Below, in pieces: positions 2,564-53,741 of a stretch of 64,000 bases of DNA. The stretch lies in NCBI GenBank assembly GCA_013368315.1, contig JAACJM010000051.1, forward strand, positions 310,001-374,000. Reading direction: 5' to 3'. A program made the translations under genes and the position numbers. The notes beneath the pieces are model-generated. The model did no database searches. It was not told the DNA's origin and saw only the letters and a program-made list of their open reading frames with translations. The DNA comes from Tetrapyrgos nigripes (taxonomy: Eukaryota > Basidiomycota > Agaricomycetes > Agaricales > Campanellaceae). How positions within the stretch are numbered: position 1 is the stretch's first letter; each line of letters starts with the position of its first letter.

Positions 2564-2570
2564 TATAAAA
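2564..2570 (+). promoter_or_regulatory. TATA box of the hydrophobin gene
   Basis: TATAAAA lies 56-62 nt upstream of the first in-frame ATG (2626). That spacing suits a TATA box with a transcription start around 2595 and a short leader. It supports the chosen start, because the same reading frame is open upstream but has no earlier ATG. Confidence 0.6.
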
Positions 2571-2625
2571 GCTGAGAGCGTTGTTCTTGCTTCCTCAGTC
2601 CAACAAGCGGAACGACACGCAAAGG

Positions 2626-4007
2626 ATGCGCTCTCTTGATCTACTCTTCTCTCTCTATGTTCTCTCGTCTCTTCGCCTTGCGGCTGCCACACCAATCCAG
2701 CAGATAGCTGAACGTCAGCTCCTGCCAACTAGCCTTCCTATCAGTCTACCCATCAGTCTCCCGACGTCCCTGCCCATCAGCCTCCCAATCAGTCTCCCAA
2801 CGGGTTTACCTATCTCGCTTCCCATCACTCTACCCACCGGGCTCCCTATCTCTGTCCCGTCGGATACGTCTGCCCAGGCTTCTACTACCGAAGAGTCAGG
2901 CTTGCCCATTACTCTTCCTACCGGCCTTCCCATCTCGCTGCCTACTGGTCTTCCCATTTCACTGCCTCCTGGTCTCCCCATTTCGCTTCCTACCGGTCTT
3001 CCCATTTCTCTTCCTGCCGGTCTTCCCATCAGCTTACCTACTGGCCTTCCTATTTCTCTTCCTACCGATCTTCCCATCTCACTGCCCACTGGCCTTCCCA
3101 TTTCTCTTCCTACCGGTCTTCCCATTTCTCTTCCACTCCAGCAGATAGATGAACGTCAGCTCCTGCCCATCAGTCTCCCAACGAGCTTACCTATCTCGCT
3201 TCCCATCACCTTACCCACCGGTCTCCCGATCTCTCTTCCATCGGAGACGTCTGCCGAGGCCTCTACTACCGATCCGGGCTTGCCAATCTCTCTGCCCATT
3301 ACTCTGCCAACTGGCCTTCCTATTTCTCTTCCTACCGGTCTTCCCATCTCTCTCCCTACCGGTCTTCCCATCTCTCTTCCTACCGGTCTTCCCATCTCTC
3401 TTCCATCGGAGACTACTACCGACCCGGGCTTACCAATCTCTCTGCCTATTACTTTGCCAACTGGCCTTCCTATTTCTCTTCCTACCGGTCTTCCCATCTC
3501 TATTCCGAGCCTTCCTATTGTACGTATGCATGAATCATTTTTACATCTACTGCTGACTTACGTCTCGCGAATAATGTCAGTCTCTCCCAATCCCAACTGG
3601 GCTCCCAAGCGTTTGCTCGGTCGGAGATCTTCAATGCTGCGCTGTTGTGACCACCGTAAGTAACATACCTCCACTGTATGTTGTATAACAATAACGAACT
3701 CAACCACACATAGCCCTCTTCTCCTGAAGGGGCTAACGTTCTCGATGCTCTCGGTGTGGTGTTGCAGGATCTGAATCTCGGTATAGGAATCGGTTGTCAA
3801 TCCATCGATCCCATCGTTGGAGCTACTTTATGCCCGACTACTCCAGTCTGTTGCGAGGATCATAACTTTGTGAGTCTCCTCGGCTCTGACTTTCTATACT
3901 AAAGCGACTTACCACCGTTGATTGCCCAGGGCGCTATTCTCGAAGTTGGATGTACTGCTGGCGGTCTTGGTGGTCTTGGTGGTGTTCTTGGTGGTCTTGG
4001 GCTTTGA
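2626..4007 (+). CDS. Class I hydrophobin with a ~300-residue N-terminal Leu-Pro repeat extension
   Basis: Four exons can be read: 2626-3519, 3581-3655, 3714-3869 and 3930-4007. All joins are phase 0 with GT-AG introns of 58-61 nt, and the product is 400 residues. Residues 1-20 form a signal peptide (LLFSLYVLSSLRLAAA core). Residues ~30-310 are an almost unbroken xLPx tract, mostly alternating LPIS and LPTG, broken by three Ser/Thr/Glu-rich spacers and one repeated QQI(A/D)ERQLLP block. The spliced C-terminal part is a canonical hydrophobin domain: CSVGDLQCC, then VVLQDLN, then single cysteines in GCQS and LCPT, then PVCCEDHNF, and a last cysteine in EVGCT. That gives the C-CC-C-C-CC-C order. 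The protein ends in a Gly/Leu-rich tail. Hydrophobins are secreted amphipathic proteins that coat hyphae and fruit bodies; class I members usually have ~100-150 residues. The domain call is firm. The role of the repeat (wall spacer, surface adhesive, extra amphipathic layer) is inference. Confidence 0.88.
2716..3519 (+). repeat. Coding minisatellite (xLPx, 12/24-bp unit) inside the hydrophobin exon 1
   Basis: The tract is built from 12-bp units encoding Leu-Pro plus two residues, most often paired as the octapeptide GLPISLPT. A larger duplication is layered on top. The block starting at the first ERQLLP (about 2704-2730) recurs at about 3138-3165, and each block is followed by LPITLPTG, a Ser/Thr/Glu spacer, and then a run of GLPISLPT. 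Unit boundaries differ by silent changes, so the array is not fresh. Its antisense strand is also open because of the codon pattern, which explains long minus-strand open frames that are not genes. Confidence 0.85.
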
Positions 4008-4354: not shown

Positions 4355-7090
4355 CTACTTGTTCTCCGCCTTAATCAAGTCCGCAGCCTATGACAGCAGA
4401 TGGTGAGTTCAAGGAAAAGTTGAGTGGAGATAGCGCTTACCTTCTCGGCGATAGCGTACACGGTGTGCTGAATGTGAGCGGACAATTGCTGAGATATACG
4501 TGAGCACATAATTACTGCCATAAGAACCATTTGACAAGACGTACCAATGGAATGACTGACGCATCCGCAACCCTCAAATTCTTGGTCCCGTAAACTTTCA
4601 GCTTACTATCAACAACACCTCCATCGGCTTTGGGAAGCATGGGCACCGTTCCGATGGGGTGGTTGAACGGCTCGACCTTGTCCCTGACCCATTCCGCCAA
4701 TTTCTCATCGCTAGAGAGAGCTTCTTGGGGTGGATCATAGATACCGGTGATGGCGTCACTGTAAGGAGCTGTCTTTGCGGCTTTCACCATTAACTTGACA
4801 CCAGCAATGAGAACTTCTACATCCAGAGGGTTGGTAAGATAGCCTGTGTCGATATCTGGGTTGACCAAGGGATCCGAGGAAGAGATGTGGACGGAACCTC
4901 GCGAGAGAGGGTGCAATAGTCCAACCATGTTGCAGTGGTAGTGTTTTCCTGGCTGTGCTTTGAATTCAGGCTTGAACGAGAGGAAAAGTGGAAGCTGGAG
5001 GAGCCTGGTACATTCATAAAAACGACGATCAGCATGAATATCAGAAGAAGAGAAGTGAAGACCCACTCGATATGGGCATGTTGTTGATTGAGAGACCACT
5101 GCTTCAGAAGTTCCTTCTCTTTTTTGAGCGCATTCGTATTAGTTGGGAACGTCTGATCGAGTTTCTGTACGAAGCCTTTGACTTCCTCAGGGGTCATTAC
5201 AGTCGTCAAAGGAGCAAAGCCAAACGCTGCGAATCCGACACTAAGCAGACCTTCCTGCTTTTCCTGACTGCAAGACAACTACTGTCAACGTACTAGTTAT
5301 TAGGTAGATTGAAAATCACTTACTAGAGCTGAATTTCCTGACCGAGACGCGCTTGGTCCTGGAGGACTTCAATCGTGTCGTATTTGGTGTCTACCTCTGT
5401 TTGTACGCCAACCCATGGGTGATCCTTGGGATAATCGTGAGCGAATGAGTATCCTGCAGAGGTTTTCGTGATACATTACCTGCAGATTCTCTCCGACGGG
5501 AAGATCAATCAATTGCTTGATTCCGTGTTTTCCGAGGACACTCGATAACCCAACGCCTTGAAAACAGTAATACAGGCAGCTTCAGCAAAAGTCAACACTT
5601 AAATCAATTCTGATCGCTTACCAGAGTGCTCGAGAATAGCAGGAGACATATATGTTCCTAGCGGTAAATGTCAGACGGAACAATATCAAAAAAAAAACTG
5701 AACCAACCTCCGGAGATAATAACTTCCTTCTTCGCCTTGACTATGGACTTTTTGCCGTCCTTCAGAATCTCGACTCCAGTTGCGACGAATTCCCCATCGG
5801 AGGCTGGTTCCAAGATGACTCTGAGAGCGCGAGTCTCGGTGAGGACAGTCAAGTTCTTTCGATCAACAATGGGAGCATAGTAAGCCTAAAATGGCAAAAG
5901 ACGGAATTAGTGAAAGAAGGAATCAATATCGAAAGAACGTACTGTAGCGGCATAGCTACGAGTTTTGCTAGCCTGGTCAATGTTCGAGTAACCGGTGAAT
6001 GATCCCACATTGTTACCGCTTCCCTATGATAAAGCTTGTCAATGTGGTACCAAGGTAATAGCTAAATATGAACGCACAGTATCATCGTTTCTGGGCACGC
6101 CAGCCTTGACCAACGAATCCAGGAAAGGCATATGAAGCTGATTCCATTGATGGATGATGGATTTCTTGACAGGTCCAGATCTTCCATGGAGACTTTCTGG
6201 CAGCGTTTTTGGCGCACCGAATTGAGAGGCAGCTTCTTGAGTAAGCTCGGCCGTACCCTCGACCTAGAGTGCATAGAAGCGAATGATCCAATTGTTACAA
6301 CTTGAAAGCCAAGATACGAGGATTAAAACGTACTTTCAGCAAGTAAGGAAGGAATTCGCTCCAGCCCCACCCAGGGTTTCCCAATTCAACAAGGGCTGCG
6401 CATGGACAAGGTCAGTTTTAGGCTAGTATTCCACGGCATCTCCTGATTTACCATCATAATCTTCCTTCGAGGGACTGCCAACAGAGACCGAGTGAGTTTT
6501 ACAAGCCTGATGCAGAGATACACGATGTCCACGTACCGGCCCCATGCCATGTAGTTCAGCTAACAATCAATCACAGCGTCAATCCAAATCCACGCTAAAA
6601 GGTGCATTGGGTAAACCAACGTACTGCAGAAGAACCCCCAATCAATTTCCCACTGAGCACGGAACATGATCAATCAGTACCATCATTACGGCTTGGGATA
6701 AAGTGATTCTCCATACCGGACTTGGGGGATAACTCGGTTATTAGCACATTTTTGTGGAACATTGACTAAATTCCAATCCACTCGAGGATTTCCATGTGAC
6801 ATCGTTTGCATTCCTTATCAGCGTATACCCAAAATTAGATCACGAAACGAGAGAAAGAACCAACAGTGACACGCACCTGGGATGAGCAGAGCATGCATAT
6901 CGGTGACATATTCTCCAGCTTCAATAACACCAACGGTAACGTTTGGATCTTCACTCAATCTATGATGAAGAAAAGACCACAAAAAGAGATCAGATATCGG
7001 CGATAATGACCAGTCTGATACGCACCTCGCAGCCAGGGCTATACCTGCGGTTCCACCTCCCGCTACGACGTAGTCAAAAGTATCGGCCAT
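4355..7090 (-). CDS. GMC oxidoreductase, aryl-alcohol-oxidase-like, no signal peptide
   Basis: I could follow 17 exons and 16 short introns from the ATG at 7090 to the TAG at 4355-4357, giving roughly 570 residues. The N-terminus has the FAD dinucleotide-binding motif (VVAGGGTAGIALAAR) and then GVIEAGE. GMC signature 1 lies around VDWNLVNVPQ and GKLIGGSSALNYMAWG. Signature 2 is GTYMSPAILEHSGVG. The two active-site histidines are expected in FNHPIGT and SAHIQHT near the C-terminus, and both are present. The family oxidises alcohols with O2 to give H2O2, and secreted members support lignin breakdown. This copy starts MADTFDYVV without a signal peptide, so a cytosolic or peroxisomal role is more likely. 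It converges on the hydrophobin with about 350 bp between stop codons. A TATAA-like motif sits at 7178-7183. The exact substrate cannot be assigned. Confidence 0.9.
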
Positions 7091-31197: not shown

Positions 31198-31329
31198 AGG
31201 CCCGAGTCGTGGTTGAGCATTCTCACCGGCTTGTCCTGGACCCTCACTATAGTAAGTACTCGATACTCTTTCCTCAGGATTCTTTTGACCCCGGCGTTTT
31301 CCAGCTCGACTCACGAAACTTCCCCTGTT

Positions 31330-33438
31330 ATGCGTCTCTTAAGCATGACAGACTTCCAAGTCAAGGAGTTTCTCACGGATATTCCGCGCTATGCTATCCT
31401 CTCACACACTTGGGAGCAGGAAGAAATTACCTTTCAGGAAATCCAAAACCTCGACCTCGCCAAATCCAAAGCCGGCTTTCGTAAAGTCTTGGGAGCTTGT
31501 GTCCGTGCTCGTCGCTATCATTTTGATTGGATCTGGATCGACTCGTGCTGCATCAACAAGGAAAGCAGCGCAGAGCTCTCCGAAGCGCTCAACTCAATGT
31601 ACCAGTATTATGAAGATGCAGCAATTTGTTACGTCTACCTATCTGACGTCTCTGGAGAGTATCATCCTAGAAATGAGAAATCCAACTTTGGAGACAGCAG
31701 ATGGTTCAAGAGGGGTTGGACGCTTCAGGAGTTGCTCGCACCTGAATTTGTTGTGTTTTTGGATAAGGATTGGGAAAGGATTGGAACCAGGTGGAGCTTG
31801 CGGGATGTAGTCTCGGCAGTTACTGGCATTCCAGCGGATGTGTTCGAGGGCCGCGATATTGATGAATATAGTGTCGCTCAGAGGATGTCATGGGCTGCAT
31901 TTCGAGAGACTACGAGGCCGGAGGACCAGGCGTATTGTTTGTTAGGGATTTTTGGTGTCAGTATGTCGCCGATCTATGGGAAAGGTGGCGTCAAAGCCTT
32001 CATGCGGCTGCAGCAGGAGATCATCAGGATTTCCGATGATCGCAGCATCTTTGCTTGGGTTGCCGCGCCGCCCATGGCCGGACTGGAGGAGGGGTGGCAG
32101 AACCCATACCGTGACACTCCCCCAGTCAGGATAGACAAGCCCAGGGGTTTGCTAGCTCAATCGCCCTATGAATTTAGGATGTCAGGTGACGTGCAGGCTT
32201 CCAATGTGGAACTCATCGGCAACAAATCATCCTACTCGTTTGGTAACAATGGCTTGCATATCCATCTTCCTCTCGATCCCGCCTCTTACAGCTCCGGGCG
32301 CTTTGGCGAAGACATCTTTCTCGCACACCTACTCTGCCGGTCCACAAGAGATGGTGGCTACTTAACTGTTTATCTCCAAAAGACGAGTGAAGATCAATAT
32401 GTACGGTGTTATGCAGATGAAGTATTCTTGACGAGCTCATCACCCGCAATGGATAACGTTCGGGAGCTTACCGTCAGAGAGCACCTAGTCACAAGGCGCA
32501 GGGTCCGATCTTCGGATACATCCGGCGCAGCAGAATCGTCGATGTCACGGTACAATGTTGAACTTGTTCACTCAGCTTGGGACTTCCTTTATCAGCCCTC
32601 TCCGCATGAGGGGCCCGGTCCATTTGAGGTCTCTGGCATCGATGAACATACAGTATCCGTTGCTCTGGATCCATCGTCACTTGGAGTTGTTCAGTACAAG
32701 CGTCCGGAAACTGGAGATTCTTTCGGCATCATCTTGACACATCCTAGAGTTGGCCAGCCTTCTCTGCACATTTCCGATGAAACATTGATCCAGGGTATTT
32801 CCATTCGAGGGGACACACTTCTAGGGGGACTGAACAGCGGAAACTACATTATGATTGTGTCTGAGAGGAGAGGAGATTCGGAGGAGAAGATAGAGATTAT
32901 TTATATTGGTCAAGATAATCCCGAAATTCACCTCTGGACTCGTCCATTGCGACTCCCTGATTTAGGCTTCATGGTTCCTTCCAGGGTGGCAGACTCTTTC
33001 GATGATCTCAAGTTCGAAGGGATCTTTCCCCCCGATCCGTTAGGCAGGATCACTCAAGATATGGCCTATGTTTCCGTCTTTCGACCACACCCTGACGATC
33101 CAAAGGAATGCGGTTATCATACGTTCCGCCTACTTACGTACCGGTGGGAGGATTCAGGGCTCGACTACATCATTCACGTCGCATTTGGGCTCCAAGGATC
33201 TTCGGAAGTTTGGACGGATGTTGTTATACAGTCCCCTGACTGCCGTGAAAGTTCTGAACATGTTTGGAAATCGTATCTCGACGCTGGGTCAAGGGCTCAG
33301 AAGCGATTGCAGGGTGAAGGATTTGCGAAGATGGTGATTTCTATAGCTGGAACCATTTCTGCGACTGCTAGGATCCAAAAGACCAGAAATCTGCAGCTGG
33401 GGGATTACCTGTTGCGCCTGAACGTGTACCGACAATGA
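31330..33438 (+). CDS. HET-domain protein (heterokaryon incompatibility type)
   Basis: A single uninterrupted exon encodes 702 residues. The start is MRLLSMTDF; an open frame exists upstream to 31213, but MRLL(N/S) is the usual N-terminus of basidiomycete HET proteins. HET core motifs occur in order: YAILSHTW (residues 21-28), WIWIDSCCINK (67-77), YYEDAAICYVYLSD (93-106) and RGWTLQELLAP (128-138). A second conserved block follows: RDVVSAVTGIP, VAQRMSWAAFRETTRPEDQAYCLLGIFGV, then MRLQQEIIRISDDRSIFAWV. The remaining ~400 residues are a less conserved C-terminal region with no repeats I recognise. HET domains trigger cell death after fusion of incompatible hyphae in ascomycetes; in basidiomycetes their role is less clear. 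This is the only intact copy of three in the window. Confidence 0.92.
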   Translation: MRLLSMTDFQVKEFLTDIPRYAILSHTWEQEEITFQEIQNLDLAKSKAGFRKVLGACVRARRYHFDWIWIDSCCINKESSAELSEALNSMYQYYEDAAICYVYLSDVSGEYHPRNEKSNFGDSRWFKRGWTLQELLAPEFVVFLDKDWERIGTRWSLRDVVSAVTGIPADVFEGRDIDEYSVAQRMSWAAFRETTRPEDQAYCLLGIFGVSMSPIYGKGGVKAFMRLQQEIIRISDDRSIFAWVAAPPMAGLEEGWQNPYRDTPPVRIDKPRGLLAQSPYEFRMSGDVQASNVELIGNKSSYSFGNNGLHIHLPLDPASYSSGRFGEDIFLAHLLCRSTRDGGYLTVYLQKTSEDQYVRCYADEVFLTSSSPAMDNVRELTVREHLVTRRRVRSSDTSGAAESSMSRYNVELVHSAWDFLYQPSPHEGPGPFEVSGIDEHTVSVALDPSSLGVVQYKRPETGDSFGIILTHPRVGQPSLHISDETLIQGISIRGDTLLGGLNSGNYIMIVSERRGDSEEKIEIIYIGQDNPEIHLWTRPLRLPDLGFMVPSRVADSFDDLKFEGIFPPDPLGRITQDMAYVSVFRPHPDDPKECGYHTFRLLTYRWEDSGLDYIIHVAFGLQGSSEVWTDVVIQSPDCRESSEHVWKSYLDAGSRAQKRLQGEGFAKMVISIAGTISATARIQKTRNLQLGDYLLRLNVYRQ

Positions 33439-48884: not shown

Positions 48885-50185
48885 ATGGAGCCAAAATTGG
48901 CCCACAACACATACATCCACTCACATACCCTCCCCCTCATCCCCATAAATTCAGCTATCAGTGTGGGGTTTCTTTTCCCCCTATTCTCGAGCTCATTGAG
49001 GCCAGAATGGCCCCACAACAGAAATAAACCATGGTCAACTCCCCTCCACTTGCATACCCTCCTCATCACCCCTCCCACAAACTCATATCTCCATGTTCAG
49101 ACCACTTATCACTGTGGGATTTCCCCCCTCTTATTCTAGATTTTAATGAAGCCATAATGTGCCTACAACAGATATACATCCTTGATCAAACTTCCCTCCA
49201 CTCACTTACCCCCTCACCCACCATACACTCATATCTCCATGTCCAGACCATCTATCACTGTGAGGTTTCTTTCCCTCTTATCCTTGAGTCCAATGAGGCC
49301 AGAATGGCCCACAATACAAATAAACTGATCAACTCCCCTCCACTCACATGTCCTCCTCCTCACCTCCCCACATACTCATATCTCCATATCCAGACCACCT
49401 ATCACTGTGGGGTTTCTTTCCTCTCATTCTTGAGTTAAATGAGGTCAGAATGGCCCCACAATACAAATAAACTGTGGTCAACTCCCCTCCACTCACATAT
49501 CCTCCTCCTCACCTCCCCACAAACTCATATCTCCATGTCCAGACCCCTTATCACTGTGGGGGTTTTTCCCCTCTCATTCTGGATTTTAATGAGGCCAGAA
49601 TGTGTCTACAACAGATATAAATTCTTAGTCAACTTCCCTCCACTCACATACCCTCCCTCTCACCCTCCATAAACACATATCTCCATGTCTAGACCACCTA
49701 TCACTGTGGGGTTTCTTTCCCTTTTATTCTTGAGTTAAATGAGGCCAGAATGGCTCCACAACATGAATAAACCCTTCACCAACTCCCCTCCACTCACATA
49801 CTCTCCTCCTCATCCCACCACAAACTCATATCTCCATGACCAGACCTCCTATACGTCCAGACCACCTATCACTGTGGGGTTTTTTTACCCTTTCATTCCA
49901 GATTTTAATGAGGCCAGAATTTCCCTACAACAGATATACATCCTTGCTCAACTTCCCCCCACTCTCATATGTGCCCTCCTCACCCCCCATAAAATCATAT
50001 CTCCATGTCCAGACCAGCTATCACTGTGGGATTTCTTTCTCTCTTATTCTTGAGTTAAATGAGACCAGCATCAGCCCAAAATCAGAGACTTCCATAGGAA
50101 CCTCAACTACATTCAATATGTCTTTCTCCTCATCCCTCAATCATCCCTGCAGGGATTTATACTATTACAACCAGACCATCTATCA
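48885..50185 (+). repeat. Tandem array, ~150-bp unit, eight to nine copies
   Basis: The phrase CTATCACTGTGGGGTTT recurs near 48955, 49109, 49252, 49400, 49550, 49700, 49868, 50020 and, degenerate, 50180, giving spacings of 145-167 bp. Between these, each unit has TGAGTTAAATGAGGCCAGAA, a short A-rich part (ACAACANAAATAAAC), TCCCCTCCACTCACATACCC and CTCATATCTCCATGTCCAGA in that order. Units differ by scattered substitutions and small indels. The long plus-strand frames here are side effects of the repeat and not genes. Confidence 0.9.
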
Positions 50186-53103: not shown

Positions 53104-53741
53104 CTGCAGGAATGTCCAAGTCTCTCCCAGCTTTTGCTAGTAGATCAGCAATATCAGCAGCCTCGCTTCCTGCCCCACCAGAATGTGCTGGTACATGTGA
53201 GAAAATAATCTGCAATCATCTAGCTTTGAGCCATGTTGCAATACATTGAAGAATGTCTCCATTTTTGCACCTCCAGCCCCTCCAGTCCCCACCAACAGAT
53301 AGAATGAATGGCATATTCGGAGTCATTGAAAATTTGCAATATTGTCTCCCTAGCATCAGAGCTTCCCTGAATTGCTGCCAATATTGCATAGAGTTCACCC
53401 CTGTTATTTGTCTGATCACCAGGGACACAAAGTGATTGGTTATGGGGGTTAGTTTCCTTATAGTAAATGCCAGCTGCTGCCACAGCATGTCTACTTATCT
53501 CATTTCCACAAGAGCAATCTGTGTATACCCACCAGATACTAGCTTTACTGGAAGAAATAGCCTGTCCATACGCTTTTCCTGTTAATTCTGTCAAGGAAGG
53601 CAGAAGTTGAAAATCCAAGGCAGTGACTAGGGGAAAGGATAAGTCCTTTGTGCACCTATGATGACTGTTAGATACTGGTCTCTCCCTAACAAGTACTGGC
53701 ACAGATACAAGGAGTTTCAGATAGGCATGGTCTGACCACAT
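52970..53741 (-). pseudogene. LINE endonuclease end and RNase H domain
   Basis: The piece at 53220-53741 starts with MWSDHAYLKLLV, the last motif (SDH) of an exonuclease/endonuclease/phosphatase domain. It then reads WWVYTDCSCGNE (RNase H TDGS motif, Gly replaced by Cys), TNNRGELYAILAAI (catalytic Glu) and IFNDSEYAIHS (catalytic Asp). After a frame break, 52970-53215 has IIFSHVPAHSGGAGSEAADIADLLAK, the HVxAHxG...N..AD C-terminal motif. The domain therefore lies between endonuclease and RT. Confidence 0.8.

Follow-up and report, generated by a model that had tools for sequence, protein, structure and literature searches.

A gene at positions 2626..4007 on the plus strand of the window, the whole 64,000-nucleotide stretch of Tetrapyrgos nigripes DNA that was analysed, is predicted from sequence, and very likely, to encode a 400-residue protein in which a 277-residue tract of Leu-Pro tetrapeptides precedes a class I hydrophobin domain. 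Judged by its sequence, the protein is a class I hydrophobin of the extended-N-terminus group, and the sequence and length of its tail are unmatched in that position among the matches listed. We propose that it is a secreted hydrophobin whose tract forms a proline-blocked interfacial ribbon, an overall explanation that we regard as evenly poised. A long, regular tail under constraint at the protein level, with tail-less paralogues in the same genome, offers a clean test of tail function, and the polypore proteins that carry the same pattern beyond the other side of the core extend that test.

Gene structure and the hydrophobin domain

The protein is obtained by joining four exons (2626..3519, 3581..3655, 3714..3869 and 3930..4007) after removal of three phase-0 introns; all features described here lie on the plus strand unless stated otherwise. 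In this splice model, exon 1 (aa 1–298) holds a signal-like start and the bulk of the tract. Intron 1 (3520..3580; 61 bp, GTACGT...CAG) is located 12 codons upstream of the first hydrophobin cysteine, C1. Exon 2, of 25 codons, contains the end of the tract (SLPIPTGLPSV) and C1–C3, and intron 2 (3656..3713; 58 bp, GTAAGT...TAG) follows 13 codons downstream of C1. Exon 3 (52 codons) contributes C4–C7, and intron 3 (3870..3929; 60 bp, GTGAGT...CAG) lies directly 3' of CCEDHNF. Exon 4 provides C8, a glycine-rich end (TAGGLGGLGGVLGGLGL) and the stop codon at 4005..4007. A putative TATA-like box (TATAAAAG, 2564..2571), recognized from sequence only, is found 62 bp 5' of the ATG.

The same gene, with three short introns and 400 residues, had been proposed in a sequence-only reading, and it was ranked first (score 7.55) by an automated enumeration of introns, which combined donor, acceptor and branch-point scores with a required cysteine pattern over a range widened for the long exon. 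The runner-up model (5.25) keeps introns 2 and 3. Exon 1 ends in ...SIPSLPI and exon 2 starts with SLPIPTGLPSVC, leaving the Leu-Pro motif in phase across intron 1. This continuity, together with intron positions common to paralogues, argues that the joint between the two exons is real. Translation without splicing, from the ATG at 2626 to a stop at 3661..3663, would give a stand-alone repeat protein lacking the hydrophobin. We rejected it as the principal product, since paralogues have introns at these same positions; intron 1 may be retained in some transcripts. The full 400-residue protein is absent from the matches of the full-length protein search and thus seems to be unannotated as such in that collection.

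The protein was also said to be secreted, and here the support is a prediction: a likely signal peptide covers aa 1 to about 22 (2626..2691), with a cleavage site placed by eye. The first 22 residues are hydrophobic, and AlphaFold2 places a helix at residues 3–18. The calculated mass, counted from aa 23, is 37.6 kDa.

The class I hydrophobin domain occupies aa 310–385 (3614..3959, with introns 2 and 3 inside). Its match to PF01185 reaches 53.2 bits (E 5e-14, residues 310–385), well above the cut-off of 23, which bears out the earlier identification of a C-terminal eight-cysteine class I hydrophobin; exon 3 alone gives 37.7 bits in a six-frame genome search. The closest solved structure is PDB 6e98_A (E 2.3e-11). 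The cysteines lie at residues 310, 317, 318, 351, 363, 369, 370 and 383, in the order C-CC-C-C-CC-C and with class I spacing (6-0-32-11-5-0-12). Even a loose form of this pattern appeared in only 4 of 200,000 shuffles of aa 299–400. SC16, a class IB protein (cf. SC3) with cysteines at 33, 40, 41, 76, 89, 95, 96 and 109 (PMC5385502), has the close spacing 6-0-34-12-5-0-12.

A hydrophobin profile search scored 7994 candidates and returned 1128 matches; the figures for listed relatives rest on the best 120 of these 1128. The eight-cysteine pattern is present in 119 of the 120, and 117 of their 122 hydrophobin domains share the spacing 6-0-32-12-5-0-12, in which the C4–C5 interval is one residue longer than here. 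The protein differs from these Basidiomycota class I hydrophobins on both sides of the core: 309 residues precede C1, compared with a median of 37 in the 119 listed relatives, and 17 glycine-rich residues follow C8, compared with 5 to 7 in the listed relatives, the polypore proteins apart.

Composition, constraint and shape of the Leu-Pro tract

The tract (aa 33–309; 2722..3613, split by intron 1) consists of 58 xLPx units, mostly GLPI, SLPT and SLPI. It contains 23% Pro and 8% Gly, 74 Ser/Thr and only 12 charged residues among 277, with a GRAVY of 0.65. Its charged residues include a single Arg and no Lys. N-glycosylation sites and dibasic sites (KK, KR, RK or RR) are absent from the entire 400-residue protein. 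The repeat shows two levels of organization: 24-bp units were multiplied, and a larger duplication repeats the head QQI[A/D]ERQLLP. The first head copy, IQQIAERQLLP (aa 24–34; 2695..2727), and the second, LQQIDERQLLP (aa 171–181; 3136..3168), differ at 3 of 33 bases. The sequence-only reading placed a near-perfect tetrapeptide tract in the N-terminal ~280 residues. Position and length agree with our result, with the motif also extending into exon 2; the perfection holds only within runs, where up to 14 prolines are spaced exactly four apart, since the second head copy and three S/T/D/E-rich spacers, starting at aa 79 (SDTSAQASTTEES, aa 79–91; 2860..2898), 206 and 261, interrupt the tract.

The longest ([LIV]Pxx)n run comprises 20 units, whereas 300 dinucleotide-preserving shuffles of 2626–4007 never exceed 3, whichever frame is read. 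This difference, and the concentration of variation at the third positions of the plus-strand frame, rule out a chance or antisense artefact. No other convincing copy of the tract was found in the genome: a search that scored 18 candidates gave 6 matches, of which 5 were this same gene. A candidate second Leu-Pro gene, L042 (E 8e-5), proved to be unrelated, a low-complexity sequence of FLPF/FLPT type that is repetitive in three frames. No Leu-Pro tract was seen in six more hydrophobin loci (L044–L049), read as unspliced open frames.

Comparison of repeat units indicates constraint on the encoded protein. In three arrays of 9, 4 and 2 units, chosen by DNA similarity, dN/dS was 0.12, 0.04 and 0.09, with pS of 0.48, 0.51 and 0.65 and pN of 0.09, 0.03 and 0.12, respectively; slippage and gene conversion make the units of these arrays non-independent. 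Within the nine-unit array, variation is concentrated at third codon positions (permutation p 0.0002). Since most differences between units are silent, it is the peptide and not the DNA that is kept. An earlier dN/dS of 0.124 from units chosen by peptide pattern was circular and is superseded by the arrays above.

The regular repeat gives the tract two faces in one geometry. At 180°, the angle of a strand, the hydrophobic moment is 1.76 compared with 0.50 in shuffles, none of 300 being as high, and the longest exact run reaches 2.12 compared with 0.50 (0 of 500); this value is nearly dictated by the repeated word and is silent on the conformation in the cell. At 120° (polyproline-II) the tract scores 0.34 compared with 0.56, and at 100° 0.29 compared with 0.55; at both angles all 300 shuffles are at least equal. 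Leu and Ile therefore lie mostly on one side, with Pro, Ser and Gly opposite, only if the chain is extended as a strand. Proline-rich rods are usually polyproline-II helices with three residues per turn. The expectation of an extended, amphipathic rod is not supported as stated by these values, because with polyproline geometry the shuffled sequences are more two-faced than the tract itself.

Structure prediction gives weak evidence for repeats such as these, and it indicates no folded rod. AlphaFold2, run on exon 1 alone as a single sequence, returned a pLDDT of 36.8, with values below 50 for residues 18–298. A prediction for the polypore set, made with three sequences, gave 36.6 and was uninformative. 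A high content of Pro and Gly is described as keeping elastin-like hydrophobic chains disordered and outside amyloid (PMC5703643).

Relatives, paralogues and line of descent

A full-length protein search scored 7997 candidates and gave 25 matches with E up to 0.001, only three of which show the eight-cysteine pattern: P0001 (Cubamyces lactineus), P0002 (C. menziesii) and P0004 (Earliella scabrosa). Like the Tetrapyrgos protein, these polypore proteins combine a hydrophobin with a long xLPx/xIPx tract, containing 33, 35 and 35 [LIV]P pairs, respectively. Unlike it, all three have the reversed order, with the hydrophobin first and the tract last, and their cores are distant in the tree. Their C-terminal tracts show the strand moment as well (1.98, 1.77 and 1.71; 0 of 300 shuffles each), a likeness that is not independent because the proteins were found by similarity to the tract. 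P0004 matches PF01185 with 25.9 bits. P0001 and P0002 give no match, despite having all eight cysteines, and reach only 8.5 and 8.2 bits, far below the cut-off, with Hydrophobin_2. A profile comparison of the polypore cores with Agaricales hydrophobins gave a 93.3% probability (E 2.8e-7) of their being hydrophobins. From the opposite order and the distant cores, the polypore C-terminal and Tetrapyrgos N-terminal tracts are probably convergent. Reversed-order proteins such as P0001 and P0002, overlooked by PF01185, may be under-annotated in polypores.

An N-terminal Leu-Pro tract of this size was found nowhere else among the matches listed in the protein searches. The search for such hydrophobins that had been suggested yielded, among the matches listed, only the 31-residue tail of P0102 (Paramarasmius palmivorus, 133 aa), which is also the only dense N-terminal Leu-Pro tail among the 120 listed relatives; such tails may be commoner than these 120 show. 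P0102 resembles the present protein in having 8 [LIV]P pairs in the 31 residues before C1. It differs in that its tract is about one ninth as long and has no strand pattern (0.40 compared with 0.49 shuffled; 157 of 300). The strand pattern is thus not general, being absent from the nearest relative of the same domain order. A query of the 124 C-terminal residues scored 69 candidates and gave zero matches.

Among the listed relatives, 17 have at least 70 residues before C1, and four of these (P0026, P0028, P0042 and P0084) appear on visual inspection to be fused or over-extended models. Other long tails are of T/V/P type (P0057, P0059 and P0137) or rich in G/S/P (P0110, with 8 [LIV]P pairs over 137 residues). 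Two of these tails, in P0059 and P0057, were found independently of the Leu-Pro tract but selected by eye for the strand test; they show a weaker strand moment of 1.17 (0 of 300) and 1.00 (3 of 300), respectively, compared with 0.44 in shuffles. The test covered the tract, the three polypore proteins, P0057, P0059 and P0102. Two eight-cysteine matches each were observed in P0026, P0027 and P0114 (Gymnopilus dilepis, Coprinellus aureogranulatus). The inner signal-like starts of P0026 and P0114 make fusion of gene models a likelier explanation than a true polyhydrophobin.

The T. nigripes genome holds a large hydrophobin family, with 51 six-frame PF01185 matches, some of them exons of one gene and many on contigs C87, C100, C60 and C36. 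Modeling was tried at 34 paralogue loci and gave 29 models; L010 and L029 duplicate others, and L015, L017 and L034 gave none. Because L004/L011 and L003/L018 are each one gene counted twice, the models represent fewer than 29 genes. Seventeen of the 29, including four of the six that share the intron pattern described below, have exact counterparts among public T. nigripes proteins, which is agreement and not proof since those proteins are also predictions.

Six models (L019, L020, L021, L023, L024 and L027, on contigs C60 and C100) have phase-0 introns at −12, +13 and +66 relative to C1. The tract gene has its introns, also all in phase 0, at −12, +13 and +65, and exon 2 comprises 25 codons in all seven. 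The offset of +65 instead of +66 matches the one residue fewer between C4 and C5. L016 and L022 share only the second and third intron positions, and the remaining 21 models have a last intron at +66 in phase 1; in 20 of these 21, an intron at +6, before the CC pair, is found in place of that at +13. This likeness shows the gene structure, and the protein sequence does not confirm that the gene descends from the group sharing these introns. The best 25 of 154 domain matches include no model from that group of six, the closest being P0036 (Dendrothele bispora, 63.6 bits) and the fifth L012 (61.7). In the tree, the domain stands beside L012 (90/91, not starred) on an end branch of 1.63, compared with a median of 0.051, and this long branch makes the placement weak. 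The gene is possibly old and fast-evolving, or its core may be under relaxed selection.

In 10 of the 29 paralogue models, the signal peptide is followed by TPLEVRQ or NPLEVRQ just upstream of C1. Together with TPIQQIAERQ after the signal here, these sequences perhaps mark a common propeptide cut. Another hydrophobin locus, L045 (G000:C156:105800-108700, minus strand), has an N-terminal extension with extra cysteines (ENCVKIPEFKTLMCC) and a ten-proline run ahead of the core. L004 and L005, about 1.6 kb apart on opposite strands of contig C36, form an inverted near-identical pair with their last 111 residues in common.

Possible roles of the tract

With 309 residues before C1, the protein falls within the published class of extended N-termini, defined by at least 70 residues (PMC12375992). 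The 2025 survey that gives this definition counts 143 class I and 60 class II hydrophobins with such tails, many predicted to be mainly disordered, and calls their function poorly understood (PMC12375992). QID3 and its relatives likewise have a long, disordered-looking tail between signal peptide and core. In the published tails the abundant residues are given as Gly, Ser and Asn, as Pro and Asp, or as Gly and Asn (PMC12375992, PMC2253510), in contrast to the Leu-Pro tetrapeptides here. Hum3 of Ustilago maydis, described as an extended-N-terminus hydrophobin (PMC2253510), is similar in plan, as had been pointed out: a repeat domain, here predicted to be secreted as in Hum3, is N-terminal and the hydrophobin C-terminal in both. 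The repeats of Hum3 are also called amphipathic (PMC4617103). They number 17 and measure 31–36 residues, and putative Kex2 motifs set off 14 of them (PMC4617103), whereas the present repeats are of 4 or 8 residues with no dibasic Kex2 sites between them. No match to the Leu-Pro hydrophobin was found in the open-licence PMC literature, judged by titles and abstract starts. The suggestion that the tract projects or tethers the hydrophobin layer in a new way is too strong to draw from architecture, because long N-terminal class I tails have been described (PMC12375992, PMC2253510).

We propose that exon 1 of an ordinary three-intron hydrophobin gene grew between the signal peptide and intron 1, with multiplication of 24-bp units and one larger duplication giving the 277-residue tract. 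The core would assemble at an air–water or wall surface as its relatives do. Rodlets of SC16 are reported to form without the N-terminal tail (PMC8748815); an altered tail therefore need not disturb assembly. The tract itself would be unfolded, and its proline at each fourth position should keep it out of amyloid sheets; proline at this spacing should hinder sheet stacking in general. The tract may instead extend along the interface in a ribbon of strand-like form, Leu and Ile facing one way and Gly, Ser and Pro the other, and would then widen or soften the rodlet coat rather than project as a stiff rod. This is suggested by the alternating pattern, the hydrophobicity and the constraint taken together, and we offer the interfacial function tentatively, as somewhat short of an even chance. 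It is weakened by the 74 Ser/Thr residues, since O-glycosylation (O-mannosylation) of these could turn the tract hydrophilic. If the ribbon is real, the coat would join a core that forms amyloid to an interfacial polymer that resists it, and a surface-active tail would be a natural design for hydrophobin–polymer coatings.

The strongest alternative, which we consider unlikely but a serious contender, is that the tract is a spacer or wall anchor, either a neutral disordered tether or a binder of wall polysaccharides that holds the hydrophobin at the wall. The 143 class I members of the extended-N-terminus group, many predicted to be mainly disordered (PMC12375992), fit this explanation, as does the wall binding hypothesized for the proline-rich N-terminal extension of QID3 (PMC2253510). 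Related T. nigripes genes also have a short T/P-rich linker at the equivalent site. However, a plain tether needs neither alternating Leu/Ile nor such constraint, and a GRAVY of 0.65 is hydrophobic for one. We are a little more doubtful of an extension of the interfacial-ribbon proposal, namely that alternating Leu/Ile ribbons are a second surface-active hydrophobin module, evolved separately in Tetrapyrgos, in front of the core, and in Cubamyces and Earliella, behind it.

It is rather improbable that the tract acts by elastin-like coacervation, phase-separating during secretion or wall growth and concentrating the hydrophobin before assembly. Its hydrophobic, proline-periodic and nearly uncharged composition would suit such behavior; its glycine content is low at 8%, and elastin-like repeats are richer in glycine. 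Phase separation has been hypothesized for some long hydrophobin tails (PMC12375992) and is described for elastin-like chains (PMC5703643).

Growth of a functionless repeat by slippage, or a silent gene, has a small likelihood. It would be consistent with the lack of another convincing tract copy in the genome, with the long tree branch and with the lack of a same-order full-length relative among the protein-search matches listed. Against it, the open frame, the splice sites and all eight cysteines are intact, and the peptide is kept despite pS of 0.48–0.65 between units. The four alternatives rank in about the order given here, the last and least probable being a processed precursor whose repeats and hydrophobin act separately after cleavage at ERQ, which occurs twice (starting at aa 29 and 176); a similar release has been proposed for the repeats of Hum3. 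Both ERQ sites sit in the heads of the super-repeats, RQ occurs shortly upstream of C1 in the 10 paralogue models noted above, and putative Kex2 motifs stand between 14 of the 17 repeats in Hum3 (PMC4617103). Against processing, the protein has no dibasic site, ERQ occurs only these two times, and neither copy is placed to part the tract's second half from the hydrophobin.

Several other features were observed in the window. The C-terminal part of a GMC oxidoreductase (4512..5099, minus strand; PF05199, 106.8 bits) is convergent with the hydrophobin gene. One long open frame at 31213..33438 (plus strand) carries a HET domain (PF06985, 52.2 bits). At 48955..50015, about six 150-bp units in tandem are overlapped by a two-copy row of 169 bp, and an RNase H domain at 53220..53741 (minus strand; PF00075, 48.8 bits) is possibly a retroelement remnant.
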